Positions 1 through 21,930 of a DNA stretch of 64,000 nucleotides are shown in pieces. Numbering within the stretch: position 1 is the first letter of the stretch; every line of letters begins with the position of its first letter. The stretch is from Shewanella sediminis HAW-EB3 (GTDB taxonomy: Bacteria > Pseudomonadota > Gammaproteobacteria > Enterobacterales > Shewanellaceae). Below the pieces are notes generated by a model, which did not search any database, was not told where the DNA came from, and saw nothing but the letters and a program-made list of their open reading frames with translations. The translations under genes were made by a program, and so were the position numbers. The stretch is from positions 5,022,001 to 5,086,000 of the forward strand of contig NC_009831.1 of assembly GCF_000018025.1 (NCBI RefSeq), given 5' to 3'.

Positions 1-2908
1 ACTCCAATCCATCTTCCCCGTCACGCGTTCTTGTTTCTACTATATTTGTAGCCGTATCGGTATTAAGTACATTATAAACGGTTCCTTTGACGGTAAAGTC
101 TCCACCAAATAGATCTGTCATATAGGTTAACGAGAGATCTAACTTAGTCACCCATGGGAGGTTCCCTTGGCTACCACGCGGTGCAGGATCTTCGTTCTCA
201 TCATAGAAACTTGAGTGGCCATAGTAACCCTCACATGCATCCCAAACATTACCTTCTTCACAGCTATCAACACCTAAAGGATGGCGGCCGAGATAGTTTT
301 GTGGACGGCCGGAACTGATGCTTGTAACAAAACCAAAAATCAGCTCTTCGGTAATATCATAGCTACCATTGAACTTGAAGACATGAGTGTGATCATTTGG
401 CAGATCGCCGTATGAATGATCCATGATGTCACCATAGTCATAAGAGGTAGTCCAACCCGGATCGGCTTGGTTATTATCGGTTTTAACAAGCCCTTCAGTG
501 TTGCCCCAGTTATCAGACAGGGTATAAGAGGAGTTGATTCTGAAATCTTCGGTAACATTGCCATCGAGTGTTAACTCTAGTGCCAGATAATGACGTTGCA
601 TCCCAGGAAGGGCCATCTCCTCAGGAGAAAGCGTTACATTGTCAACTTGACCATCGCCATCGAAATCTTTGGCAATAGTTAAGCTCTCTCCTGGGTTATG
701 TAAAAACCAGGTACTACCGACTGAATCATAGCCTAACTCGGCAAGCTTCTTATTTAACGGAGAAGTGATATCTGAATCTTCTACGCCACGGCCAAGGTCT
801 CGCCAGATCACTCGAGCACCTGCAGACATGGTATCGAACACTTCTTGCTGATAACCGACAGTAAATTCATCTGAATACATAGGCTTCAAAGTTGTCGATG
901 CTATTTCACCTGCATTCGAATCTGAGCTGTCTTGCTGTACATAGGTATCTCTTAGCAGCTCACCACGACTCGGAGAGCCATCTGGTAACAATACTGGATA
1001 GCCATTCACATCCACTTCATCGAAGGCATAGAAATCGATAAGGTCACTCGCCGAACTTCCCTGAGTAATGTTCATGTTTGCCGAAACCGGTTGGTAATAT
1101 CGTCCATATGTCGCAAACACTTTGGCACTACCATCACCATGAAGATCATAGATAGCTTGCAGTCTTGGCGCAATCTGGTTGTCAAAATCGACATAGGCTG
1201 TACCATCTGACATGGTATTTTCCGATTGGGTATACCTCAGTCCCATATTCAGGACTAAGCTATCAGTTGCCTGCCAGGAGTCGTTCACGTAGAAAGCGAG
1301 TGCACTAACATCTGAATCGGTGAATCTGTCTCTTACTCGACGTTGGATGTAATCTTCTCCGGGAGCCGCCCCAGAGATGCTACCTTCACCGGCAGTTCTG
1401 ATTTGCCACCACCCCGCACCTTCATCGATACCATTAGGCGTTTCTAAATACTTTACGGCGACATTGGTATAGTCGACCCCAAAGCTGATCGCATGCTCTT
1501 CCAGATCCCAATTAAAGTCTATTCTTGCCTGATCGCGGGTATACTCTTCATTATATAGCGTTGAATTCGTTTCTTGACTTAACTTCACCCAGCCATCGCG
1601 TCCGTCCCATACCGATGGGTCAGTAGAAGCCGGAACCGTATTCTCTTCTTGGACCACACGACCAACGACTGCCGATACGGAGAAGTTATCTGAAAGGTAA
1701 CCGTTGTAGTTTAAGCTATAGAGTTGACCACCGTCCTCGCCAGGAGAATCAACCCCTTTCTGTGCGCCTATCTCATCAGTTTCCCAATCATAGGCATATG
1801 TTGTGGTTGTCCAGGTACGCTTGTTATTCATGGCCATGAAACCGATAGAGTGATCTTCTGTCATGTACCAGTCTAACTTAGCAAACCAACGATCTGATTC
1901 ACGGTCTCTTACTGAAGTTGTCGTTTGTCCTGACCACTTGGACTCCTCCTTACGTGGCTCGTAGAGCCCATAATAAAACAGTGAGTCTTCTACTATCGCC
2001 CCACTGACCCACAGTTTTGCCTGCTTAAAGTCATAGCTATCCTGTGCGGTGACATCCTGCATTACACCGTTGTAATCATAGATTGAATCTTGAGTAGCGC
2101 GAAGCGAAGATGGGTCATATCGAATTTCTCCACCAAACTTAAACTCGTTATCACCAGACTTAGATACAGCATTGACAATACCGCCCAATGCTCCTCCAAA
2201 TTCAGGACTTACGCCACCAGTCTTAATTTGAGTTTGAGAGATAGCTTCCCATGGTAGGGACAATGAGCTTAAACCGGTCTTAATATTAGTAATATTAAGA
2301 CCGTTTAAGAAATAAGCATTTTCAGCGGAAGATGACCCACCAAAACTAGATGCACCATTAAAGTTTGATCCACCAGCAGCCGCAGTACCCGGAGCAAGTA
2401 GAGCAATATTTTCAAAACCTGAGTCCACAGGCATAGTATTAAGCTCTTCCTGGCTAAAGGTCACCCCGGAAGTAGAAGAAGAGGTATCGATTCTACGGAT
2501 CATGCTGCCCGTAACAGCGATCCGCTCAACGTTATCAACTCCCACGGCTGTCAATTGGCCATCCAAAATAACCGGCTGTCCAATAACAACCCTTACACCA
2601 GACTCTTGAGTCTTAGTGAATCCGTCTTTTGTAATGCTGACGTCATAATCACCAACGGGAACATTACGTAAGAAGTAATCACCCTTTTCATTGGTTTCAA
2701 CTGTATATACTAAACCTTTGGTCTTATGTTTCAGCGTGATAGTCGCATTAGATACTGTCGCTCCTTCGCTGCTAACGATATGACCTTTTACGATACTGGT
2801 ATCGGCAGCCATCACTCCCGGTGCCGACATCATCAATACTGAACCTACGGCGATCGCAGCAAGCGTTTTTCTTGGTGTAAATCGCTTAAGCGCATTACTT
2901 CCAGACAT
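1..2908 (-). CDS. TonB-dependent outer-membrane receptor with N-terminal regulatory-like domain (3' end outside window)
   Basis: Reading leftward from an ATG at 2908 the frame stays open to base 1, so about 969 N-terminal residues are present and the C-terminus is missing. Residues 1-34 look like a signal peptide (basic start, hydrophobic core, cut after VMA). Residues 36-115 resemble a carboxypeptidase-regulatory-like beta-sandwich (KGHIVSSEGATVSNATITLK). A plug domain follows (FSQEELNTMPVDSGFENIAL, then GGVSPEFGGALGGIVNAVSK), and then a long aromatic-rich barrel with alternating strands. The layout is that of Oar-like receptors found in several copies in Shewanella. Such proteins import a ligand across the outer membrane using TonB energy; nothing here shows which ligand. 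A GGAGAA ribosome-binding site precedes the ATG. It follows gppA in the same direction, but a 365-bp gap suggests its own promoter. Confidence 0.88.
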   Translation of the reverse strand, partial: MSGSNALKRFTPRKTLAAIAVGSVLMMSAPGVMAADTSIVKGHIVSSEGATVSNATITLKHKTKGLVYTVETNEKGDYFLRNVPVGDYDVSITKDGFTKTQESGVRVVIGQPVILDGQLTAVGVDNVERIAVTGSMIRRIDTSSSTSGVTFSQEELNTMPVDSGFENIALLAPGTAAAGGSNFNGASSFGGSSSAENAYFLNGLNITNIKTGLSSLSLPWEAISQTQIKTGGVSPEFGGALGGIVNAVSKSGDNEFKFGGEIRYDPSSLRATQDSIYDYNGVMQDVTAQDSYDFKQAKLWVSGAIVEDSLFYYGLYEPRKEESKWSGQTTTSVRDRESDRWFAKLDWYMTEDHSIGFMAMNNKRTWTTTTYAYDWETDEIGAQKGVDSPGEDGGQLYSLNYNGYLSDNFSVSAVVGRVVQEENTVPASTDPSVWDGRDGWVKLSQETNSTLYNEEYTRDQARIDFNWDLEEHAISFGVDYTNVAVKYLETPNGIDEGAGWWQIRTAGEGSISGAAPGEDYIQRRVRDRFTDSDVSALAFYVNDSWQATDSLVLNMGLRYTQSENTMSDGTAYVDFDNQIAPRLQAIYDLHGDGSAKVFATYGRYYQPVSANMNITQGSSASDLIDFYAFDEVDVNGYPVLLPDGSPSRGELLRDTYVQQDSSDSNAGEIASTTLKPMYSDEFTVGYQQEVFDTMSAGARVIWRDLGRGVEDSDITSPLNKKLAELGYDSVGSTWFLHNPGESLTIAKDFDGDGQVDNVTLSPEEMALPGMQRHYLALELTLDGNVTEDFRINSSYTLSDNWGNTEGLVKTDNNQADPGWTTSYDYGDIMDHSYGDLPNDHTHVFKFNGSYDITEELIFGFVTSISSGRPQNYLGRHPLGVDSCEEGNVWDACEGYYGHSSFYDENEDPAPRGSQGNLPWVTKLDLSLTYMTDLFGGDFTVKGTVYNVLNTDTATNIVETRTRDGEDGLE

Positions 2909-3273
2909 AATTTATTCTCCCTTAAACCTTCTCTGAGTAAGCACTTAGCAGAAATATTATTAGTAGATGTGGGTACAAAACGAGCCAAGTGCAACAAAAC
3001 GATAACACAGCTTACATATTTTATACAATCTGCAATATCCAAGTTGAAGTTGAATACGCCCTGATCTTGCCATCTACATGGAGATCGAAAAAGCGCCAGA
3101 TAAAGAGAGGTAGCGGAAGATTTTATGGTTTCAACACAAGTATAGGCTGGGTGAACTTGAGAAATATTCACGTTGACGCTGGTGCTGGTGCTGGTGCTGG
3201 TGCTGGTGCTGGTGCTGGTGCTGGTGCTGGTGCTGCAAATGAGAAAAGGGAGAGGGATAAAGTCAACGACTCA
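2909..3273. other. Intergenic region between the TonB receptor and gppA
   Basis: This 365-bp gap lies upstream of the receptor gene and downstream of gppA, both leftward. It should hold the receptor promoter and the gppA 3' end. The notable content is the GCTGGT microsatellite at 3178-3234. Open frames crossing it consist of low-complexity Ala-Gly, Leu-Val or Ala-Pro repeats and are not believable genes. I see no strong hairpin terminator. Confidence 0.5.
3178..3234. repeat. Hexanucleotide microsatellite (GCTGGT)9.5
   Basis: Fifty-seven bases of perfect GCTGGT repetition, nine and a half copies, about 270 bp upstream of the TonB receptor start and 40 bp past the gppA stop codon. Perfect short repeats of this kind change length by slippage. 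Because it lies outside both genes, a length change could only alter spacing in the receptor's upstream region or the gppA 3' UTR. Confidence 0.95.
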
Positions 3274-4191
3274 CTACTTGATTCGGTTTGCCAACCTCTG
3301 TAGCACCCCTTCTCTAAGCGCGCCGCCAGAAAGGTTAAGCTTTTCAATTTCAAGAAGCTCGAACAGGGCCAGTAGTATGGATATGCCGGCGGCAAAAGTC
3401 GGTGCTCTTTCTGGGTGTAATCCGCTAATGTCCCGCATCGAGATATCTTCTTGCTCTAAGATCTCTTGCTTCAGAGTGTTGAGCACAGCAGGAGTGATAC
3501 TTGCTGATTCATTGCGATGATTCAGTAACTCAACCACAGATTGCACACTGCCGGAAGCTCCGACAACACAATGCCAACCTAAAGCCTTCAGTTCAGTTAA
3601 ATATTGCCCCAAAACGGCTTTAACTTGCGACTCGGCATCGTCGAAATCTAACTGTTGGAATGGAAAGGAGTTAAAGAAGCGTTCATTGAAAGTCACGCAT
3701 CCCATAGAGAGACTGGTTTTAAGCAAAACCTTATCATCGTCACCGATAATAAATTCGGTGCTAGCGCCCCCGATATCGATCACCAGTCGACGACCTTCCG
3801 CACACGTAGTCGCAACCATACCTTGATAGATAAACTCGGCTTCCTGCATACCTGAGATGATCTCAATAGGGTGACCAAGAATGGGTAAGGCGCGTTGGCA
3901 AAAATCATCCGAGTTGCCGATATGTCTGAGTGTTGCAGTTGCAATAACGGCAACATTATCAGGGGCAACACCCTCCTCCTTCAGCATTTTTGCAAACATA
4001 GCCAAGCAATCCAATCCTCGGTTCAGCACCTCTTCACTTAAGGTACCATCGCCTTGAATTCCTTCGGCCAGTCTGACTTTGCGTTTATATTTAGCAATAA
4101 TTTCAGGTTGGCCACCAAGTGTCTTGGCAACCAACATGTTGAAACTATTCGAACCTAACGTAATCGCTGCGTATGGAGGAGTATTTGACAT
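3274..4191 (-). CDS. gppA: Ppx/GppA family phosphatase, short form
   Basis: A 305-residue member of the exopolyphosphatase/guanosine pentaphosphatase family, which hydrolyses polyphosphate or converts pppGpp to ppGpp in the stringent response. The actin-like ATPase fold is evident from ITLGSNSFNMLVAK near the N-terminus (phosphate loop 1), ATATLRHIGN, the signature VIDIGGASTEFIIG around residue 140, and GGALREG near the C-terminus. E. coli GppA is about 494 residues, so this protein has only the two catalytic subdomains and lacks the C-terminal HD-like helical half. Its position next to rhlB matches E. coli gppA, which is why I use that name; Ppx activity cannot be excluded. It ends in tandem stop codons (TAG TGA). 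It is 11 bp downstream of rhlB and probably cotranscribed with it. Confidence 0.85.
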   Translation of the reverse strand: MSNTPPYAAITLGSNSFNMLVAKTLGGQPEIIAKYKRKVRLAEGIQGDGTLSEEVLNRGLDCLAMFAKMLKEEGVAPDNVAVIATATLRHIGNSDDFCQRALPILGHPIEIISGMQEAEFIYQGMVATTCAEGRRLVIDIGGASTEFIIGDDDKVLLKTSLSMGCVTFNERFFNSFPFQQLDFDDAESQVKAVLGQYLTELKALGWHCVVGASGSVQSVVELLNHRNESASITPAVLNTLKQEILEQEDISMRDISGLHPERAPTFAAGISILLALFELLEIEKLNLSGGALREGVLQRLANRIK

Positions 4192-4202
4192 CTATCGCAT
4201 GC

Positions 4203-5510
4203 TTACGAGTGTCTGCGAGTTTTGTCGTGACGACGTGGGGCGTTACGATTGCCACTACGTGGCTTTCCACCCGAGCCAGAACGTCCCTGAGGTCGACTGT
4301 TATGCTTTCTGTGTACTCTGACAGGAGCTGGAATGTCATCCAGTAACGCTTCGCTATCATAGTTAGTCACAGGAATAGTGTGATTGATATACTCTTCAAT
4401 TGCAGGCAAGTTCAACGCATACTCTTCACAGGCAAAACTAACCGATACACCTTTCTTACCCGCGCGACCCGTACGGCCAATGCGGTGTACATAATCTTCG
4501 CAATCATCGGGAAGATCATAGTTATATACGTGAGAAACATCTGAAATATGCAAACCACGAGCGGCTACATCGGTAGCAACCAGAACATCAAGTTTTCCTT
4601 CGGTGAACAGCTCAAGAATACGAATACGTTTCTTTTGTGGAACATCGCCGGTCAATAATCCAACTCGGTGTCCATCGCCTTCTAACCAAGACCATAATTT
4701 TTCACAGCTGTGTTTGGTATTTGAGAATACAATCGCCTTGTCCGGCCAATCTTCCTCGAGAAGGGTAAGCAACAGACGCATCTTCTCATCCATAGATGGA
4801 TAGAAGATCTCCTCTTTGATGTTCTTAGAGGTTTTTTCGTTCGGTGCGATTTCAACTTTCTCTGGCTCATTCATATGATCATAAGCCAGCTCCTGCACTT
4901 TCATCGACAGAGTAGCAGAAAACAGCATATTCAGACGCGACTTGGCATCTGGCATGCGTCTGAAAAGGAAACGAATATCTTTAATAAAGCCGAGGTCAAA
5001 CATACGATCGGCTTCATCTAAAACGACAGCTTGAATTGCACTGACGTTAATGATTCCCTGACGAACATAATCTATGATACGGCCAGTAGTTCCGATAAGA
5101 ATATCGACACCTTTATCCAGCACTTTACGCTGAACTTCATAACTTTCGCCACCGTAGACTATTCCGACTTTCAGTCCTGTGTGTTTAGCAAGCAGATCCG
5201 CATCTTTGGCGATCTGAATTGCAAGTTCACGAGTGGGGGCCATAATAATCGCTCTGGGCTGATTAAGCTGGCGGCCTTCCGGAATAGGGGTGGTAAGCAG
5301 GTGATTGAACGTGGCAACAAGAAAAGCTAACGTTTTTCCCGTGCCAGTTTGCGCTTGACCCGCAATATCTTTTTTCTGAAGAAGAATAGGTAGAGATAAC
5401 GCTTGAATAGGCGTGCAGTATTCAAAGCCGCTCTCGTTAAGTGCTGTTTTTATCTCTGTTTGAAGAGAAAAGTCGGCAAACTTCTGATTAGATAAATGTG
5501 TTTCGCTCAT
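4203..5510 (-). CDS. rhlB: DEAD-box RNA helicase RhlB
   Basis: 435 residues with all helicase motifs in order: an N-terminal Q motif ([14 protein letters not shown]...CTPIQ), AQTGTGKT (Walker A), [16 protein letters not shown] (Walker B), [15 protein letters not shown] and [10 protein letters not shown]. The C-terminal tail from about residue 395 is rich in Arg, Gly and Ser, as in RhlB of other gammaproteobacteria. RhlB unwinds structured RNA for PNPase within the RNase E degradosome; that role is family knowledge. It is divergent from trxA and followed closely by gppA, the same arrangement as in E. coli. Confidence 0.95.
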
Positions 5511-11690: not shown

Positions 11691-12359
11691 CTATGCGTGT
11701 GGAAGAAACGCCAGCAATGACGCCATGCCGATAACCACAAATACCACACTCACTATCGTTTTTATCTTTTTCATTCGAGCTCGGGTATTGAGATCTCGGG
11801 CGGCGCCCCATTTTATGGCGACTCGATATACTCCGATGGCGGCATGTAACTCTACGCAGAGCAGAAGCGGCATATACAACATCCATACACCATCATTCCA
11901 GATCCTGTCTGCGGATCCTGAAGGACCGATAGTCTCTGGTGCCGAGCCGATAAGCCACAGGTGTACGGGTAACATCAGCAAGATACCGACCCCCGTAACG
12001 GCCTGCCAGACCCAGAGTTTGGTATCTCCATGACTGATTGAGGCCATCTGCTTTCTTAGTGCAATCTGTTGTCTCAAGCTCAGAGGCAGCTTTTGAACCG
12101 CAATTAACACATGAACCAGCACTAAACTTGCGATAGCGATGGCAATGATTGACACCACCCAAGGGTAACCATGGCCATCGGCACTCAAAAAGTTCAGCTC
12201 CATCATGCCCGCGACCCAGGTCATTGCGTCGGCGCCGAGCAGTATTGATGACACCAGTATTAAATGTGTCCACAAGAACACGGCCAAAATAACGCCTGAC
12301 ACACTCTGGCTCATATCGAGCCAGCCACTACAGTTTTTTATTGTTTTTGTTATCGCCAT
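11691..12359 (-). CDS. frdC: Diheme cytochrome b subunit, second copy
   Basis: 222 residues, about five membrane helices, no signal peptide. It aligns along its length with the neighbouring protein encoded at 12518-13243, sharing SSILLG, GHG(Y/F)P, (W/F)WQ(A/L)VTG, (I/M)G(V/L)YRVA(I/V)KWG. The four haem-ligand histidines of Wolinella FrdC are present at residues 32, 83, 133 and 172. It would oxidise or reduce menaquinone and anchor FrdAB. It lies 111 bp upstream of frdA and starts close behind a GAGGA. Two non-identical C subunits in one operon suggest either a heterodimeric anchor or alternative anchors. Confidence 0.85.
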   Translation of the reverse strand: MAITKTIKNCSGWLDMSQSVSGVILAVFLWTHLILVSSILLGADAMTWVAGMMELNFLSADGHGYPWVVSIIAIAIASLVLVHVLIAVQKLPLSLRQQIALRKQMASISHGDTKLWVWQAVTGVGILLMLPVHLWLIGSAPETIGPSGSADRIWNDGVWMLYMPLLLCVELHAAIGVYRVAIKWGAARDLNTRARMKKIKTIVSVVFVVIGMASLLAFLPHA

Positions 12360-12517: not shown

Positions 12518-13243
12518 CTATTCAGGCACAAAGGGTTGGACAGGGAGCGCCAAATCACTACCGATTATCATGTAGGAGAGCAGGCTCAATGAACCGATGA
12601 CGATCAGATAGATGATCAACACCTTGATGATTTTTCTCAAGCCTCTTCTGTTTGCAGTCAGGCCCCATTTAACCGCGACACGATAGAGACCAATCATGGC
12701 GTGAATAACCACGGCAGGAAGAAGCAGCGCGTAGAGTAACCAGGCGTTCGCATGGTAAACACGCTCCGCGGAAAGGTGTGGCCCGATTTCAGGATTCGTT
12801 ATCATGGTAAAGACATGTACCGGTGCCAGGAAAAACAGAATAAACCCGGTAACGAGCTGCCAAAACCAGGCGTGGCTATCCTTATGGTTAATGCCGTTCA
12901 TATGACGACGCAGTGCTCGCCATTGTCCCAATTGAGCCGGAAAACGTCTCAGTGCCACAGCGGCATGTAACATAACGACAATAAGAATAAACACGGAAAA
13001 TACTTTGGTAACGACGGGGAAACCATGGCCCGTTTCACTAAACATTCCCCCCTCGAGGATCTGAACGACTTGATAGAAGGCCTCTTTTCCCAGCAGGATA
13101 CTGGACTCAAAATGCAGGTGAGCCAATAAAAAACAGCCAAGTAATATGCCTGTGACACTTTGAATTTTATCTGCCTTTGCAGACCAGGGGTGTCCTACAA
13201 TGCCAGGGATGCTTGTTTCGGGAAGTAAAGTTCTCACAGTCAT
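12518..13243 (-). CDS. frdC: Diheme cytochrome b subunit, first gene of the frd operon
   Basis: 241 residues with five predicted membrane helices and haem-ligand histidines at 42, 93, 143 and 181, nearly the Wolinella FrdC numbering (44, 93, 143, 182). The N-terminal extension of about ten residues and a C-terminal tail distinguish it from the second copy. It is first in the operon frdC-frdC-frdA-frdB; a 158-bp gap separates the two C genes. The CRP-like site at 13319-13334 lies about 76 bp upstream of its start, in a good position for activation. Confidence 0.87.
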   Translation of the reverse strand: MTVRTLLPETSIPGIVGHPWSAKADKIQSVTGILLGCFLLAHLHFESSILLGKEAFYQVVQILEGGMFSETGHGFPVVTKVFSVFILIVVMLHAAVALRRFPAQLGQWRALRRHMNGINHKDSHAWFWQLVTGFILFFLAPVHVFTMITNPEIGPHLSAERVYHANAWLLYALLLPAVVIHAMIGLYRVAVKWGLTANRRGLRKIIKVLIIYLIVIGSLSLLSYMIIGSDLALPVQPFVPE

Positions 13244-16093: not shown

Positions 16094-16116
16094 ATCGTTC
16101 ATCTCTTGCTTTAAAT

Positions 16117-16145
16117 AAAAAAACCAGCGCTATGCTGGTTTTTTT
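16117..16145. terminator. Bidirectional terminator after fis
   Basis: AAACCAGC (16121-16128) pairs with GCTGGTTT (16134-16141), flanked by A residues on the left and a T run to 16145 on the right. It can stop fis transcription and leftward transcripts. Confidence 0.9.
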
Positions 16146-16228
16146 ATGCCTGATTTTTATGAAGTGGTGTTTGGCTTTGAGACAGGCTCTTGCGCTTCCA
16201 TCAAGATGTGATGATAAAGTTATGCCTA

Positions 16229-16336
16229 TTATCCGGTAATTAACAGCAGGAGTAGCCCGATAATAATCATAAGAGCCAAGCTGCAACTCAGCAATAGACA
16301 CAAACCATAGATCAAGCTAAAGGGATCTGTTTTCAT
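16229..16336 (-). CDS. Possible 35-residue single-pass membrane protein
   Basis: An ATG at 16336 opens a 35-codon frame ending in TAA at 16229. The protein begins MKTDPFSLIYGLCLLLSCSL and continues as an almost unbroken hydrophobic segment ending LLLLLITG. GAAGG lies 7 bases upstream of the ATG, an ideal ribosome-binding site. A charged, polar N-terminus followed by one long helix is what small bacterial membrane proteins look like. I do not recognise a family. It is leftward, located between the fis terminator and the rdh operon end; a hairpin at 16451-16468 separates it from rdhB. It could also be a chance frame. Confidence 0.4.
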   Translation of the reverse strand: MKTDPFSLIYGLCLLLSCSLALMIIIGLLLLLITG

Positions 16337-16450
16337 CTGTCGGCCTTCGAAGATGCACGCTCAATTCAGAGCATGACGTCCCCCAATAACTCTCCATAAG
16401 AAGACTTCTCATAAGAAGACTCTACAGAGCCGATAACCAAGAGAGAATTT

Positions 16451-16468
16451 AGCCCCTGAGCAGGGGCT
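16451..16468 (-). terminator. Hairpin after the rdh operon
   Basis: AGCCCC (16451-16456) pairs with GGGGCT (16463-16468) around a six-base loop, 33 bp beyond the rdhB stop. The following tract on the leftward strand (AAATTCTC) is only weakly U-rich, so termination strength is uncertain. Confidence 0.45.
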
Positions 16469-16500
16469 TTCATATGAGAGTGAATACCTATCGGTATAAA

Positions 16501-16788
16501 TTATTGAGCAGGCTTGAAGCCAGGCGCTACCAGATGACGCCAGGTAACAATCACCATGAGTAGGCCGGATCCGGCAAACACAGATAATCCCAGCGCACCG
16601 GATTGAGCATAACCTTCAATAAATGAAGAGCCACACCAGGCGATGCCAAACAAGATATCCAGGATTCCGATCAACAACAGAGGTATCGCATACCATTTAA
16701 GTTTTACCACCATATGGGCATACACCATGACGTTGATTGTCAACATACTGATAATGCCCAGACAGAACCATTGTAAAGCTTCCATCAC
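16501..16788 (-). CDS. rdhB: Reductive dehalogenase membrane anchor (RdhB/PceB type)
   Basis: 95 residues, hydrophobic, with three predicted helices (about residues 4-25, 33-53 and 66-84). It matches the size and topology of PceB-like proteins that hold the exported RdhA on the outer face of the cytoplasmic membrane. It begins 15 bp after the rdhA stop, the canonical rdhAB order. Its identification rests mainly on this context and topology; sequence conservation in this family is low. Confidence 0.75.
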   Translation of the reverse strand: MMEALQWFCLGIISMLTINVMVYAHMVVKLKWYAIPLLLIGILDILFGIAWCGSSFIEGYAQSGALGLSVFAGSGLLMVIVTWRHLVAPGFKPAQ

Positions 16789-16803
16789 TCTTTCTCCTAT
16801 ATG

Positions 16804-18273
16804 TTAACCGGCTGTGCCGATATTATTTTTCATTGAAGTGTTGGTACGCATGTCGGCACCAGACTCCCAGAACTTCTCAACCTTACCTGGAATAGGCTCG
16901 GCTCCCTGTCCGCCATACCCAAACGCCGGATGGGCTTCGGCCATAAAGGCATGCAGGAATTTTGGCATCATAGGATTGACGGCCATCATCATCCAGTGAT
17001 GCCAGAAGTCGGGTTCATTAAAGGTACAGCTGGCGATACAGTTCAGGCAGGAGGTATCGTTATCGACCCAGAAGTTGAAGCAGCGTTTGGAATCTGAATG
17101 CCACTTACTGACGCCCGCGTGGCTATTCCAGGTATAACCCGGTTCATCACTGAACTCATAGGTAGGCTGAAAGGTTGGCTCATCGTCCTGACTGATGGCA
17201 CCAGACGGGCAAGAGTCGGCACACTTCTTACAGGTCTTGCAGAACTCACGCACACCCCAGGTACGTGGCTGATCGTAAGCATCTTCAAAATCGATATCGG
17301 TGAATACCTTACACAGTCTCACCCTGGGTCCGACGCCAGGCATGATACAGGATCCGAGACGACCTCCTTCTCCCATACCCGCCAGAATGGCATAAGCGAC
17401 CGAGTTAGCCAGATCGTTACCCGCACCCACGGCGTGGTAGCCACAGCCACGAATAAATTTCGCCATCTGGCAAGCCATCTTACCCATGTCGCTATAGCCA
17501 TTACCCGTGGCCCCTTCTGAGGTCCAGGATGGAGCCGTCGCTACGTTGTCATAATCCATAGGGGTGGCAATGACGATCACCGACTTGGGCTTGAAGGGGA
17601 AATCTTTCTCCCAGGATAGGGTTCTCTCATCTTCCATGTCATAAAGAGGATCGTAAACGAAACGCTTGTCGAATTTAGCGATACCGACACGGACCGCGCC
17701 AAACAGGCGTCCGGTCGAACGGATCATATCTGCGGCACGTTTTCCGCTCCCCCAATCATATTGCTCTGCCTCTACGTCGGTTTGATCCCAGCTATGCAGA
17801 GGGGTATTCGGCTGACCGAAGGCGGATGCACGGGATTTTGCGACAACCAGAGGATACCAGGCGGCATGGCCGATAGCCCTGTCGGCCTGACCATATCCTG
17901 ACTTACTATTATCGAAATGGTCGCGGTTCTCGAATGTCTGAACCACATCATTAAAATTAAAGTCTTTCTTCCACAAGCGTGAATACTGAACCGAACGTTC
18001 GGGGTGATCTATCTTCGATAGTTTTGGGCTAACCGCATGAGTCAATACCAGATCACGTTGGTCGAAGGGCTTAAAGTTCAGTTCATCGACTTCGATACCC
18101 GGCGTATTCGTCGACCCTTCCAGCGCCGCTTTCGACGCCCCTAATGCCACGCCCCCGGTCAACATAGCCGCACCGCCACCTATAACGGTTTTCTTAAAGA
18201 AACTACGTCGCGACATGTTCGGCAGATCATCTTGTAGCTCTTGTGAGCTCCGGTTTTCAATTTGGTTTGTCAT
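16804..18273 (-). CDS. rdhA: Corrinoid/iron-sulfur reductive dehalogenase catalytic subunit
   Basis: 489 residues. Residues 20-50 form a twin-arginine signal (MSRRSFFKKTVIGGG followed by a hydrophobic stretch and ALGASKA), so the folded enzyme is exported by Tat. Near the C-terminus CKTCKKCADSCP (Cys codons within 17209-17241) gives the first [4Fe-4S] site. C-x10-C-x2-C-x3-C (codons within 17026-17082) gives the second. This double cluster after a corrinoid-binding middle region is the reductive dehalogenase signature. The family removes halogen from organohalides using cobalamin and quinol-derived electrons. The substrate cannot be read from sequence; from memory, a tetrachloroethene-active homologue was reported in Shewanella sediminis. 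I chose the first ATG because the internal ATG at the RR motif has no ribosome-binding site. An epoxyqueuosine-reductase relative is unlikely given the Tat signal and anchor gene. Confidence 0.88.
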   Translation of the reverse strand: MTNQIENRSSQELQDDLPNMSRRSFFKKTVIGGGAAMLTGGVALGASKAALEGSTNTPGIEVDELNFKPFDQRDLVLTHAVSPKLSKIDHPERSVQYSRLWKKDFNFNDVVQTFENRDHFDNSKSGYGQADRAIGHAAWYPLVVAKSRASAFGQPNTPLHSWDQTDVEAEQYDWGSGKRAADMIRSTGRLFGAVRVGIAKFDKRFVYDPLYDMEDERTLSWEKDFPFKPKSVIVIATPMDYDNVATAPSWTSEGATGNGYSDMGKMACQMAKFIRGCGYHAVGAGNDLANSVAYAILAGMGEGGRLGSCIMPGVGPRVRLCKVFTDIDFEDAYDQPRTWGVREFCKTCKKCADSCPSGAISQDDEPTFQPTYEFSDEPGYTWNSHAGVSKWHSDSKRCFNFWVDNDTSCLNCIASCTFNEPDFWHHWMMMAVNPMMPKFLHAFMAEAHPAFGYGGQGAEPIPGKVEKFWESGADMRTNTSMKNNIGTAG

Positions 18274-18324
18274 AATGCTTAATTCTCTTCATGTAACAAG
18301 GAGACAAAGTCTCTGTGAACAGGG

Positions 18325-18954
18325 TCAAACGACTTCAATCAGTTCAAGGTCAAAAATCAAGGCGGCATTCCCGGGGATCTTCGGAGCCTTACCCACTTGG
18401 CCATAGGCCAGCTCTGACGGGACATATACTCGCCACTTAGAACCGGACGGCATCATCTGTAACACCTCAGTCCAACCGGGGATCACGCTCTGCACCGGAA
18501 ACTCTACCGGCTCCCCTCTCTCGACGGAGCTGTCGAACACTTCACCGTTGATCAACATGCCATGGTAATGAACGATGACATTATCGACCTGACCGGCAGT
18601 TCGCCCCTCACCCATCTCTATGACCTTGTATTGCAGCCCGGAGTCTGTGATAACGACACCTGGCTTAAGGGCGTTTTCAGACATAAACGCCTGACTTCGG
18701 CCCGCTGTTTCATCAGCTTCGCGTTGACGAATGGCCGCTGCCAGAGCGGCGATATTTTTAAATGCCGATTCCACTTGCTGATCTGTGATGGGAGCCGCTC
18801 TGTCATGGAAGCAATCCAACATTCCGGCAAAAACGGTTTCCATCTCCAATCCGTCAAAGTTATGAGTTTGTAGGTGGCGGCCAAACTGCCACCCCAACCC
18901 ATAACTGACTTTCTGCTCATCATTCGCAAGCGATACTGGTTTAGTGTCTGTCAT
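18325..18954 (-). CDS. FKBP22-type peptidyl-prolyl isomerase
   Basis: 209 residues. The N-terminal half (VSYGLGWQFGRHLQTHNFDG, then a long helix through AAAIRQREADETAGRSQAF) is the dimerisation arm of FklB/Mip proteins. The C-terminal half is an FKBP domain (VIVHYHGMLINGEVFDSSVE, VIPGWTEVLQMMPSGSKWRVY, AYGQ...IPGNAALIFDLELIEV). There is no signal peptide, so it is cytoplasmic. It is 51 bp upstream of rdhA in the same direction. Some dehalogenase operons of Firmicutes carry a different isomerase, the trigger-factor-like PceT, that holds the RdhA precursor before Tat export; an equivalent job is inferred here. It may alternatively be a general FklB paralogue. Confidence 0.85.
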   Translation of the reverse strand: MTDTKPVSLANDEQKVSYGLGWQFGRHLQTHNFDGLEMETVFAGMLDCFHDRAAPITDQQVESAFKNIAALAAAIRQREADETAGRSQAFMSENALKPGVVITDSGLQYKVIEMGEGRTAGQVDNVIVHYHGMLINGEVFDSSVERGEPVEFPVQSVIPGWTEVLQMMPSGSKWRVYVPSELAYGQVGKAPKIPGNAALIFDLELIEVV

Positions 18955-19001
18955 GATGATTCGACTCCTTAAATAATGTAAATGTATGCAAGCTGCAGTT
19001 T

Positions 19002-19511
19002 CTAATGTCCGGCAGGTGCATCGGGCAGGGGTAAAATCAACCTTGTTGCAGGCTTCATAAAGCTCTGATGACAGGCATTGCAGGCCTGAATAGTAGTCAC
19101 TACGGCTTTCATACTGGAATTACCATCATGGTTTCGAACCGCTAAACGCAGACCAAGGGTGGCATTTTTAAGCGCCTTAGATCGGCTCTGAAACTCCTCC
19201 TTACGTTCCAGCAAGTCATCACTGGCCTTACTTTCAGTGAAGGAGTCAGGCACAAAGAAAAAATCGTTATATATGATGGATAAACCTGCCAACGAATCCA
19301 CACGGTTAAGCATGGTAAAACCATTCCACGGTTTCTTACCGGTGGCGATGGCGCCAGCATCCATCAGGCTAGCCCCCATGAGGCGGTGAACACCTTGGCG
19401 CGCTTGAATTGCCGCCGCAGGTTCGGCGTAGGGATCGGGCATTGAATTAGCTTCTGCTACAACACCAAATAGGCTTGCAAGCAAAGTTATTGAGAGAACT
19501 GTCTTCTGCAT
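19002..19511 (-). CDS. Periplasmic c-type cytochrome (cytochrome c'-like)
   Basis: Starting at the ATG at 19511 the protein is 169 residues and begins MQKTVLSITLLASLFGVVAE, a clear Sec signal. An upstream in-frame ATG at 19562 would put 17 polar residues before the signal and is rejected. A single haem motif CNACH lies close to the C-terminus (followed by QSFMKPATR), as in class II (c') four-helix cytochromes; the middle is helical. It is first in the operon cytochrome-FKBP-rdhA-rdhB. A role in delivering electrons to RdhA is inference; NO or stress sensing is another c' role. Confidence 0.8.
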   Translation of the reverse strand: MQKTVLSITLLASLFGVVAEANSMPDPYAEPAAAIQARQGVHRLMGASLMDAGAIATGKKPWNGFTMLNRVDSLAGLSIIYNDFFFVPDSFTESKASDDLLERKEEFQSRSKALKNATLGLRLAVRNHDGNSSMKAVVTTIQACNACHQSFMKPATRLILPLPDAPAGH

Positions 19512-19648
19512 TTTTTTAGGTTTCCTATCGACACACTGCCACAGGCAAAGCGCATGGGTCATATAGCACTGAATGAAAAACCGAAACGGGTTAACCTTCT
19601 GTCGCTAATTTGGGATAATGACCCAAAATCGCTTACCCAACGATATAA

Positions 19649-19662
19649 GTACCGACCAGTAC
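19649..19662. promoter_or_regulatory. Operator candidate 1 for the TetR regulator
   Basis: GTACCGACCAGTAC is an imperfect palindrome of the ACCGACCAGT type often seen for TetR-family operators. It is in the divergent gap between the cytochrome and tetR genes, 43 bp centre-to-centre from the second site. Confidence 0.5.
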
Positions 19663-19689
19663 ATACGTTAGTGGCGATAATACCTCTCG

Positions 19690-19707
19690 ATGTACCAGCC
19701 GGTACAT
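19690..19707. promoter_or_regulatory. Operator candidate 2 for the TetR regulator
   Basis: ATGTACCAGCCGGTACAT has perfect seven-base arms around AGCC and resembles site 1 (both contain GTACC and GTACAT). It lies 77 bp upstream of tetR and 179 bp upstream of the cytochrome start. Two like palindromes about four helical turns apart suggest cooperative binding. Confidence 0.55.
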
Positions 19708-19783
19708 AACGAGGTTGTAAAAATGTGACACATGGTCTGAAAATAGACAATTTTTGATTTAGAGCAACAACCACAACTTTTGT

Positions 19784-20365
19784 ATGGGTATGTCAATGAC
19801 CGGTAAAGTAACGCGCCAACGTTTTTCCAAGAATCAATGGTTGGAGGCTGGGTTAAAAATGCTATCAAACCAAGGTGTTGATAAGCTAAGCATAGGTAAT
19901 TTGTCTCGCACTGTCGGTGTCGCCAAGACCAGCTTCTACTGGCACTTTAAAGACAGACAAGATCTACTCGATCATATGCTGGAGTACTGGGTATCTGAAT
20001 TTAACGCTGTGTTAACGGACAACCCGGATCTGCCACAACTTCCGCCTAAACAGCGACTGCAAGCCATCGCCGATACTGTAGTCGGACAAGATCTAGCCAA
20101 ATATGAGTTAGCCATCCGCGGCTGGGCCAGCCACGACGAGGCAGCCATGGCGGTGTTCGACAATATTCACTCACGCCGAATGGCCGTGATTCAACGGGCC
20201 TTTGCCGACGCCGCTTTCGATGAGCAGGAGCAGAAGACCCGTGCAGAACTCTTTAACTGTTACCTGAACTGGGGCAAGGTGATGAACAACGACCCCCTAT
20301 CATTTAAGACAACGGTAAACAGACTTATCCCTATGCTGCTTCAAGCGCCAGCTGAAGCAGATTAA
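19784..20365 (+). CDS. TetR-family transcriptional regulator
   Basis: 193 residues. The N-terminal helix-turn-helix is evident (FSKNQWLEAGLKMLSNQGVD, LSIGNLSRTVGVAKTSFYWHF, KDRQDLLDHMLE); the C-terminal ligand-binding half is divergent, with conserved-looking LAKYELAIRGWASHDEAAMAVF. It is divergent from the dehalogenase operon, with two palindromes in the shared gap, so it probably controls that operon and itself; the inducer may be a halogenated compound. There are ATG codons at 19784, 19790 and 19796 in frame, none with a strong ribosome-binding site, so the exact start is uncertain. Confidence 0.85.
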   Translation: MGMSMTGKVTRQRFSKNQWLEAGLKMLSNQGVDKLSIGNLSRTVGVAKTSFYWHFKDRQDLLDHMLEYWVSEFNAVLTDNPDLPQLPPKQRLQAIADTVVGQDLAKYELAIRGWASHDEAAMAVFDNIHSRRMAVIQRAFADAAFDEQEQKTRAELFNCYLNWGKVMNNDPLSFKTTVNRLIPMLLQAPAEAD

Positions 20366-20419
20366 AGCGAAAATGTGAATTCCTGAGCAATTTAGTCAAG
20401 TTTTACTTGCCAGCGCTTA

Positions 20420-20466
20420 AAGAGGTCAATAATATGCACCTTAAAGATATAAATAATTTGCAGCTT
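20420..20466 (+). promoter_or_regulatory. Two NsrR-like palindromes upstream of the RIC protein gene
   Basis: Two overlapping-style 23-bp matches to the NsrR pattern (AAGATG-like half, 1-base centre after 11 bases, CATCTT-like half) occupy 20420-20442 and 20444-20466. Each agrees at about 16 of 22 positions by eye, for example ATATGCACCTT as the right half of the first. They sit directly upstream of the ribosome-binding site of a gene type commonly repressed by the NO sensor NsrR. The match is moderate. Confidence 0.4.
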
Positions 20467-20476
20467 TGAGGTGTTT

Positions 20477-21252: not shown

Positions 21253-21831
21253 TTAACTACCTATCAGCAGATAACCACCAATTAGCGCGATTACGCCTCC
21301 AGACATCCGCATCAAGTTATACTGCTTGCTCACATGCTGCATCCCCATACCTAACAATACCCCGACAATATGTATCGTCGCAGTGCCGCTGATAAACCCC
21401 AATGCATAGAGAATCGGATTAGCTAACTGTGGCATCTCGACACCATGGGCATGACCATGAAATATGGCAAATACACCAACAAATGCCATCACAAGTAGTT
21501 GAGGTAATCGCTTATCGATGGCTAAGGCTACTCCTAACAACAGGACCGAAACCGCAATACCCATCTCTACAAACGGAACCGGAATTGAAAGCAATCCAAG
21601 AATACCGCCAACAAGCATAAATATGACGAATGCGGTGGGGACGGTCCAGATAGCCTTGCCACCGAGCTGGGTACTTAAGATTCCCACGCACAGCATGGCT
21701 AACAGGTGATCGAAACCCAGAACGGGATGGTTAAATCCGGTGATAAAACCACCTGAGGAGTGGAGCTCATGGGCCTGTACCGGCAATGACGAAAAGAGGA
21801 TGACAAACACTAAAACAGCTAAACGCATCAT
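21253..21831 (-). CDS. HupE/UreJ family nickel or cobalt permease
   Basis: 192 residues from the ATG at 21831, preceded by AGGA at eight bases; longer in-frame starts add an unconserved polar leader. It starts with a cleavable-looking signal (MMRLAVLVFVILFSSLPVQA HE), then about six helices. Family motifs are HPVLGFDHLLAML in the first helix pair and FAIFHGHAHGVEMP in the middle. HupE/UreJ proteins import Ni or Co. No hydrogenase or urease gene is nearby; the corrinoid-dependent dehalogenase a few genes away makes cobalt supply an attractive guess, not a conclusion. Confidence 0.85.
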   Translation of the reverse strand: MMRLAVLVFVILFSSLPVQAHELHSSGGFITGFNHPVLGFDHLLAMLCVGILSTQLGGKAIWTVPTAFVIFMLVGGILGLLSIPVPFVEMGIAVSVLLLGVALAIDKRLPQLLVMAFVGVFAIFHGHAHGVEMPQLANPILYALGFISGTATIHIVGVLLGMGMQHVSKQYNLMRMSGGVIALIGGYLLIGS

Positions 21832-21930
21832 GACAACAATCCTATCCTTGATTAACTCACTATGAAGGTACGCAGCAAGATACACTGCATCAAGCAAACA
21901 CCACTTGATGCATATCAAGCGATTGAAAAC

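Follow-up and report, generated by a model that had tools for sequence, protein, structure and literature searches.

Here we describe a reductive dehalogenase locus of Shewanella sediminis HAW-EB3, found in a window of 64,000 nucleotides (positions 5022001-5086000 of the single 5,517,674-base contig NC_009831.1). Four leftward genes encode a class II cytochrome c, an FKBP22-type peptidyl-prolyl isomerase, the dehalogenase RdhA (its gene presumably being Ssed_4120) and the small membrane anchor RdhB, and a TetR-family regulator is encoded divergently. Genome comparisons show that these five genes are conserved as one block in three genera and sit in Shewanella as one inserted piece, which we read as a self-contained, horizontally moved cassette. 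In the explanation that we favour, with a probability of about 0.5, this is a regulated mobile cassette in which the FKBP would mature RdhA and the cytochrome would act as its redox partner. The gene content that a sequence-only reading had assigned to 16501-20365 (RdhB, RdhA, FKBP22-type isomerase and CxxCH cytochrome leftward, TetR divergent) is borne out by the calls of open reading frames (ORFs), and its assignments of RdhA, FKBP22, cytochrome and TetR are made firm by family profiles and, for RdhA, also by solved dehalogenase structures.

A query of the GTDB species genomes with RdhA returned 11 loci, eight of which have an RdhA of at least ~80% identity and together with the window constitute the nine cassette loci (five in Shewanella, two in Photobacterium and two in Psychromonas). 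The order TetR / cytochrome-FKBP-RdhA-RdhB and the orientation of the genes are identical in all nine, and the nine RdhAs form one clade (support 99/96). BLAST relatives of the FKBP, cytochrome and TetR were found in none of 22 non-cassette rdhA loci, three of them from the RdhA query (RdhA identity 43-52%) and 19 from whole genomes, with L039, L060 and L061 being short contigs. Within Shewanella, the cassette FKBP (E <= 1e-60) and the cassette cytochrome (92-100% identity, every other match being at or below 30%) each occur in 5 of 127 genomes, and RdhA at 97-100% identity (129 genomes) occurs in the same five; two further Shewanella genomes with other RdhAs carry neither the cassette cytochrome nor the cassette FKBP. 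The sequence-only reading had put forward a joint system, to be judged by gene order around rdhA homologues and by whether the FKBP and cytochrome genes occur apart from rdhA in close relatives; the same five-gene block is present in every cassette locus, no such separate occurrence was seen among the 127 Shewanella genomes, and gene order, insertion and exclusive co-occurrence together strongly support that proposal.

The insertion is visible in Shewanella, where the cassette adjoins ytfE/RIC in all five loci and fis in the three whose contig reaches that far (the window, L033 and L034; contigs L031 and L032 end before fis). In four cassette-free genomes, all among those with ytfE beside fis (one with a ytfE fragment only), homology to the window ends at 16158 and returns at 20370, and therefore ~4.2 kb with exactly these five genes represents one inserted piece. 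RIC/YtfE was considered as a further cassette member and rejected, being found beside fis in 9 of 29 cassette-free Shewanella fis loci; no relative of either ytfE/RIC or fis was found in the sequence retrieved on both sides of the Photobacterium and Psychromonas copies. The four leftward genes are separated by 47, 51 and 15 nt, spacings that the four other Shewanella loci reproduce almost exactly, and no predicted minus-strand terminator-like site lies inside these gaps. A sigma-70 promoter scan did not rise above the chance level (9 sites versus 8.3 expected). As to the means of movement, all plasmid records fall short of 80% coverage of the cassette (in 8 records only short pieces align, to the FKBP region), the cytochrome has no plasmid match and no relative in viral contigs, and, in a search for transposon ends, 16094-16501 and 20366-20471 had no direct or inverted word of 10 to 30 bases in common.

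RdhA exceeds the TIGR02486 cut-off of 160.35 with 188.7 bits, and the solved structures that it matches include the tetrachloroethene dehalogenases 8q4h (1.7e-59) and 4uqu (4.4e-37); a Fer4_16 domain (Pfam) lies at residues 345-419. Inspection of the translation reveals the twin-arginine translocation (Tat) motif SRRSFFKK and the iron-sulfur motifs CKTCKKCADSCP and C-x10-C-x2-C-x3-C. The catalytic pair is Y260 and R319, placed by numbering from the structure matches (SmPceA Y246/R305, which we take to be its catalytic residues, and DhPceA Y337/R396), and Tyr and Arg occupy these positions in 158 of 158 aligned sequences. In DhPceA the two residues are the catalytic Tyr and Arg, according to excerpts of PMC10624902. 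RdhA is firmly placed by its sequence in the respiratory reductive dehalogenase family TIGR02486, with corrinoid binding and dehalogenation as predicted functions. RdhB has no Pfam or NCBIfam match, and its relatives stand directly behind many other RdhA genes; four hydropathy windows exceed the threshold, two of them overlapping, and three hydrophobic segments are therefore assigned.

The FKBP contains FKBP_N and FKBP_C (Pfam) and nothing else, which places it outside the trigger-factor family, scores 198.4 against NCBIfam NF008602 (cut-off 198), and by inspection has an N-terminus without a signal peptide. Its domains and N-terminus firmly indicate a cytoplasmic member of the FKBP22/FklB family. 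The isomerase had been called built-in; it belongs to the same gene block but is a separate protein. The S. sediminis copy shares 75-77% identity with the cassette FKBPs of the other genera, 42% with the closest full-length paralogue in its own genome, and at most 46% with full-length FKBPs of the hosts in the other cassette genomes examined; the lineage therefore goes with the dehalogenase. A peptidyl-prolyl-isomerase-type helper in a dehalogenase operon has a precedent in PceT, a chaperone for the Tat precursor (PMC10624902 and PMC3403914, both in excerpt). By analogy, the cassette FKBP is plausibly an alternative to PceT from a different protein family, and we consider its role in RdhA maturation probable.

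The cytochrome probably starts at 19511 (MQKTVL..., the start given in the sequence-only reading), the longest ORF beginning at 19562; its leader was judged by inspection and was not flagged by a hydropathy scan at the transmembrane (TM) threshold. It has a single CxxCH and matches Cytochrom_C_2 (PF01322, 1.3e-15). An AlphaFold2 model, which holds no haem, is a four-helix structure (predicted local distance difference test score 74), and by Foldseek it matches Shewanella cytochromes c' (2.6e-6, 25-30% identity). The four-helix class II fold and C-terminal CxxCH of a cytochrome c' are thus both present. In an ungapped alignment to the cytochrome c' of S. frigidimarina (SfCP), His42 (H59 in the longest ORF) lines up with Phe-16, and His occupies this column in all 16 aligned relatives, nine of them from cassette loci; haem-site residues are invariant over the same 16.

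Among 23 other class II cytochromes the distal column holds Met in 11, Phe in nine, and Tyr, Leu and His in one each. These comprise 22 from a class-wide sample and the other class II cytochrome of the S. sediminis genome, which has Phe; they derive from 24 loci with long PF01322 matches, of which 23 were parsed and L090 was dropped, loci L095-L100 (matches to the C-terminal part) being excluded. Met at this column is the sixth ligand of cytochrome c-556. In characterised cytochromes c', residue 16 is Leu, Tyr or Phe and the distal site is vacant of ligand (PMC11365222, in excerpt). By alignment, the 16 cytochromes have neither the non-ligand residue 16 over a vacant site of a cytochrome c' nor the Met ligand of a c-556, and the distal His in 16 of 16, against mainly Met or Phe elsewhere, therefore leads us to predict a six-coordinate His/His electron carrier. 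The pattern argues for such a carrier and not a gas binder. The sequence-only reading had named a cytochrome c' as the electron donor: the fold agrees with that name, but His stands where Leu, Phe or Tyr would face a vacant site, and a carrier is likelier than the name suggests.

Two side observations concern these cytochromes. The 16 sequences share a C-terminal tail (residues 155-169, LPxP...H), absent from SfCP, in which L160, P161, P163 and H169 are invariant, and which is possibly a docking peptide. The single distal-His cytochrome among the 23 others, at L101 4287-5451, lies directly behind a cytochrome b561 gene, and no dehalogenase was recognised among the listed surrounding ORFs. This adjacency was tried as a sign of electron transfer and dropped, as the Phe-type cytochrome c' of the S. 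sediminis genome adjoins a similar-looking ORF.

In the proposed mechanism, TetR would bind two palindromes in the tetR-cytochrome intergenic region and repress transcription both ways until it is released by an organohalide or a related ligand, and an FNR/EtrA-like site would add anaerobic activation. The signal-less FKBP22 would act on the RdhA preprotein in the cytoplasm, assisting folding and the uptake of corrinoid and Fe-S clusters ahead of its export by the Tat route, a task that PceT performs in Firmicutes. In the periplasm, the six-coordinate His/His cytochrome would carry electrons rather than bind gas, as redox partner of RdhA(B), replacing or adding to menaquinol oxidised at the RdhA-RdhB interface. 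All three steps, those of TetR, the FKBP and the cytochrome, are those that we infer.

For the regulator, TetR_N is matched at 2.5e-9 (Pfam). In all nine loci the intergenic region contains a pair of 18-bp sites, ATGTACY-N5-GTACAT and ATGTACY-N5-GTACTT; the joint pattern matches only these two sites in the 5.5-Mb genome, and a reversed-pattern control gave none. From this conservation the palindromes are probably TetR operators. The FNR-box-like site near tetR has a fixed place in all nine loci, with 8-10 of 10 positions agreeing. Taken singly it is weaker, as 77 of 5000 mononucleotide shuffles of the intergenic region hold an equally good site and the 64-kb window contains 3 sites with at most one mismatch against 3.45 expected by chance; what speaks for it, more weakly than for the palindromes, is its conserved position. 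A TetR regulator had been noted as differing from those of other rdh loci, and this holds here: six regulator ORFs scanned near other rdh loci are of LysR (four), AraC (one) and LuxR (one) types, and the cassette TetR has no BLAST relative in the loci checked. Elsewhere in the window, an exact FNR consensus (TTGATGCATATCAA, 21905-21918) coincides with the listed start of a hupE/ureJ-like gene (21253-21918, minus strand), whose true start may be further in and which may be anaerobically controlled.

As to the electron route, menaquinol oxidation takes place at the RdhA-RdhB interface in the solved complex DhPceA2B2 (PMC10624902, in excerpt). The equivalents of its quinone-pocket residues K489, H495, D515 and Y520 are E420, H426, H448 and Y453 in the cassette RdhA, of which H426 and Y453 are kept; E420 and H448 substitute K and D in all nine cassette RdhAs. 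In RdhB, the EXE motif expected between TM helices 2 and 3 is replaced by EGY, likewise in 9 of 9. These changes, with H426 and Y453 kept, fit a changed donor site. The pocket changes were rejected as proof of a cytochrome donor, being clade-wide. A role of the cytochrome as redox partner of RdhAB is the best reading, held at even odds or slightly better. That the cytochrome replaces menaquinol altogether is a more tentative idea. The most specific form, a bis-His class II cytochrome as dedicated periplasmic donor to RdhAB, drawing on Shewanella-type cytochrome networks and not on menaquinol, joined with a private FKBP22 chaperone in one inter-genus regulated cassette, is likewise offered with reserve.

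Several observations weigh against the scheme as a whole. E420 and H448 occur in every one of the relatives listed, which are the best 120 of 599, and, among 29 non-cassette ORFs, in six and ten, respectively; in the six non-cassette loci with E420, the ORFs listed for the fetched stretch include no CxxCH protein, and the changes therefore cannot be tied to the cytochrome. FMN_bind/Fer4_5 RdhC-like genes lie beside both Photobacterium copies and the Psychromonas copy at L037 (the neighbours of L038 were not scanned), and their products could be the donors there. Haem coordination is predicted from alignment, a distal His also occurs in one (L101) of the 23 class II cytochromes used for comparison, and the seven of the 16 aligned cytochromes from outside cassette loci are database proteins whose gene neighbourhood was not seen. 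FKBP-domain-only host proteins reach 55% identity to the cassette FKBP over ~120-133 residues. The ancestral insertion site varies, with ytfE beside fis in just 9 of the 29 non-carrier loci inspected.

Other roles for the cytochrome need to be weighed. It might be a gas or redox guard, scavenging or sensing nitric oxide (NO) or O2 for the corrinoid/Fe-S enzyme while menaquinol feeds RdhA. Its fold is nearest to NO-binding Shewanella cytochromes c', the cassette lies beside the Fe-S repair gene ytfE/RIC in five Shewanella loci, and RdhB is present with the pocket residues H426 and Y453 kept; however, the distal His in 16 of 16 sequences would occupy the gas site, and the 9 of 29 cassette-free loci with RIC beside fis, together with the lack of a RIC relative in the sequence fetched around the Photobacterium and Psychromonas copies, make RIC look like host backbone. 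We regard this as unlikely. Less probable again is a functional unit TetR-FKBP-RdhA-RdhB, in which the FKBP matures RdhA and the cytochrome is a bystander or assembly aid. Among the leftward genes the cytochrome does diverge most, being 62-72% identical to its Photobacterium and Psychromonas counterparts, but it opens the block, all nine loci have it, it was not found without the cassette in the 127 Shewanella genomes, and its haem-site residues are invariant over the 16 sequences.

Another possible role of the cassette is to detoxify or scavenge natural organohalogens, as opposed to respiration that conserves energy. The S. sediminis genome has five RdhA genes above the family cut-off and the cassette lacks an uptake or corrinoid-synthesis gene, both of which would suit such a role; the exported RdhA, RdhB anchor and FNR-like site form a respiratory layout, and we think detoxification improbable. 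That the FKBP and cytochrome are ordinary housekeeping genes and chance neighbours of rdhA is very hard to sustain: both families are common and the genome has other members, but exclusive co-occurrence, conservation across genera with different flanks and the single insertion of all five genes contradict it.

Table 1. Features of the cassette, with positions in the window
Feature	Position	Strand	Basis
rdhB, small membrane anchor, three hydrophobic segments	16501..16788	-	ORF, hydropathy, relatives behind other RdhA genes
rdhA, Tat-exported reductive dehalogenase, predicted corrinoid/2x[4Fe-4S]	16804..18273	-	TIGR02486, structures, alignment
FKBP22/FklB-type peptidyl-prolyl isomerase, cytoplasmic, cassette-specific lineage	18325..18954	-	Pfam, NCBIfam, identities
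Exported class II cytochrome c (cytochrome c' fold), distal-position His42, CxxCH His148	19002..19511	-	Pfam, alignment, model
Conserved palindrome 2, ATGTACTGGTCGGTACTT on - strand, probable TetR operator	19647..19664		9/9 loci, genome pattern search
Conserved palindrome 1, ATGTACCGGCTGGTACAT on - strand, probable TetR operator	19690..19707		9/9 loci, genome pattern search
FNR/EtrA-like site TTGCTCTAAATCAA, 9/10 consensus positions	19754..19767	-	same place in 9/9 loci
Divergent TetR-family regulator	19784..20365	+	TetR_N
Inserted cassette extent	16159..20369		homology break points versus fis-ytfE region, four cassette-free Shewanella genomes

Further observations were made in the window and at other rdh loci. 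Two leftward genes in tandem (window 11691-12359 and 12518-13243) encode cytochrome b subunits of the fumarate-reductase type, matching NCBIfam PRK13553 and PRK13554. In a metagenome-assembled genome of Desulfobulbaceae (L040 8001-10765), two different rdhA genes stand in direct tandem, followed by a single rdhB. A 240-amino-acid (aa) protein recurs downstream of non-cassette rdhAB (L042 7027-7749, L048 8663-9385, L051 7924-8646 and L055 4480-5202) and is of LuxR type (GerE) in L042 and L048, the two scanned; in L048, L051 and L055 it is preceded by a ~230-aa CNHCGG protein, the L048 copy of which, the one scanned, has no Pfam match. Beside an rdhAB pair in L044, a 969-aa fusion (2365-5274) joins an FMN_bind/Fer4_5 RdhC-like protein with a flavodoxin/FAD/NAD reductase module and is possibly an NAD(P)H-linked donor.

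The electron donor to reductive dehalogenases has long been unclear. If the favoured explanation is true, a cassette with its own cytochrome represents a second, testable electron route in a culturable genus, a private FKBP is an independent answer to RdhA maturation and a practical helper for producing oxygen-sensitive corrinoid enzymes, and a distal-His class II cytochrome adds a haem ligation type to a well-studied fold. What is new here is the cytochrome with His at the distal haem position in an rdh cassette; no description of the FKBP-cytochrome-rdhA arrangement was found in the open-licence PMC literature, which was partly covered, and a published S. sediminis gene map may exist.

The four other rdhA genes of S. 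sediminis (one at L042, two at L043 and one at L044), one of which we take to be the tetrachloroethene dehalogenase gene Ssed_3769, belong to the same RdhA family and have an RdhB beside three of the four, an unmatched 102-aa ORF standing directly behind the fourth (L043 10618-10926). They differ from the cassette in having LysR and FMN_bind/Fer4_5 RdhC-like genes nearby (L043 and L044), with no relative of the cassette FKBP, cytochrome or TetR in the 12-16 kb fetched and no CxxCH among the listed ORFs. The cassette cytochrome shares the four-helix fold, C-terminal CxxCH and 25-30% identity with Shewanella cytochromes c' (SfCP, 4cx9; S. benthica, 6a3k; S. violacea, 6a3l), and differs from them in its distal His at 16, its rdh gene block and a C-terminal extension of ~16 residues with an invariant near-terminal His. 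With the cytochrome c-556 type, which is six-coordinate His/Met, it shares a ligand-capable residue at the same helix-A position, which is His instead of Met. The FKBP resembles bacterial FKBP22/FklB (e.g. PDB 7dek) in its FKBP_N and FKBP_C domains and lack of an export signal, but forms a separate lineage found with the rdh cassette. The closest parallel in layout is pceABCT of Desulfitobacterium and Dehalobacter, encoding the PceA2B2 menaquinol:organohalide oxidoreductase, which likewise combines a Tat-exported corrinoid RdhA, an RdhB anchor and a peptidyl-prolyl-isomerase-type operon helper (PMC10624902 and PMC3403914, in excerpt). In contrast, the cassette RdhB lacks EXE and the equivalents of K489 and D515 are changed, the helper is an FKBP22 instead of a trigger factor, and in place of a pceC-like gene the Shewanella cassette has a class II cytochrome.

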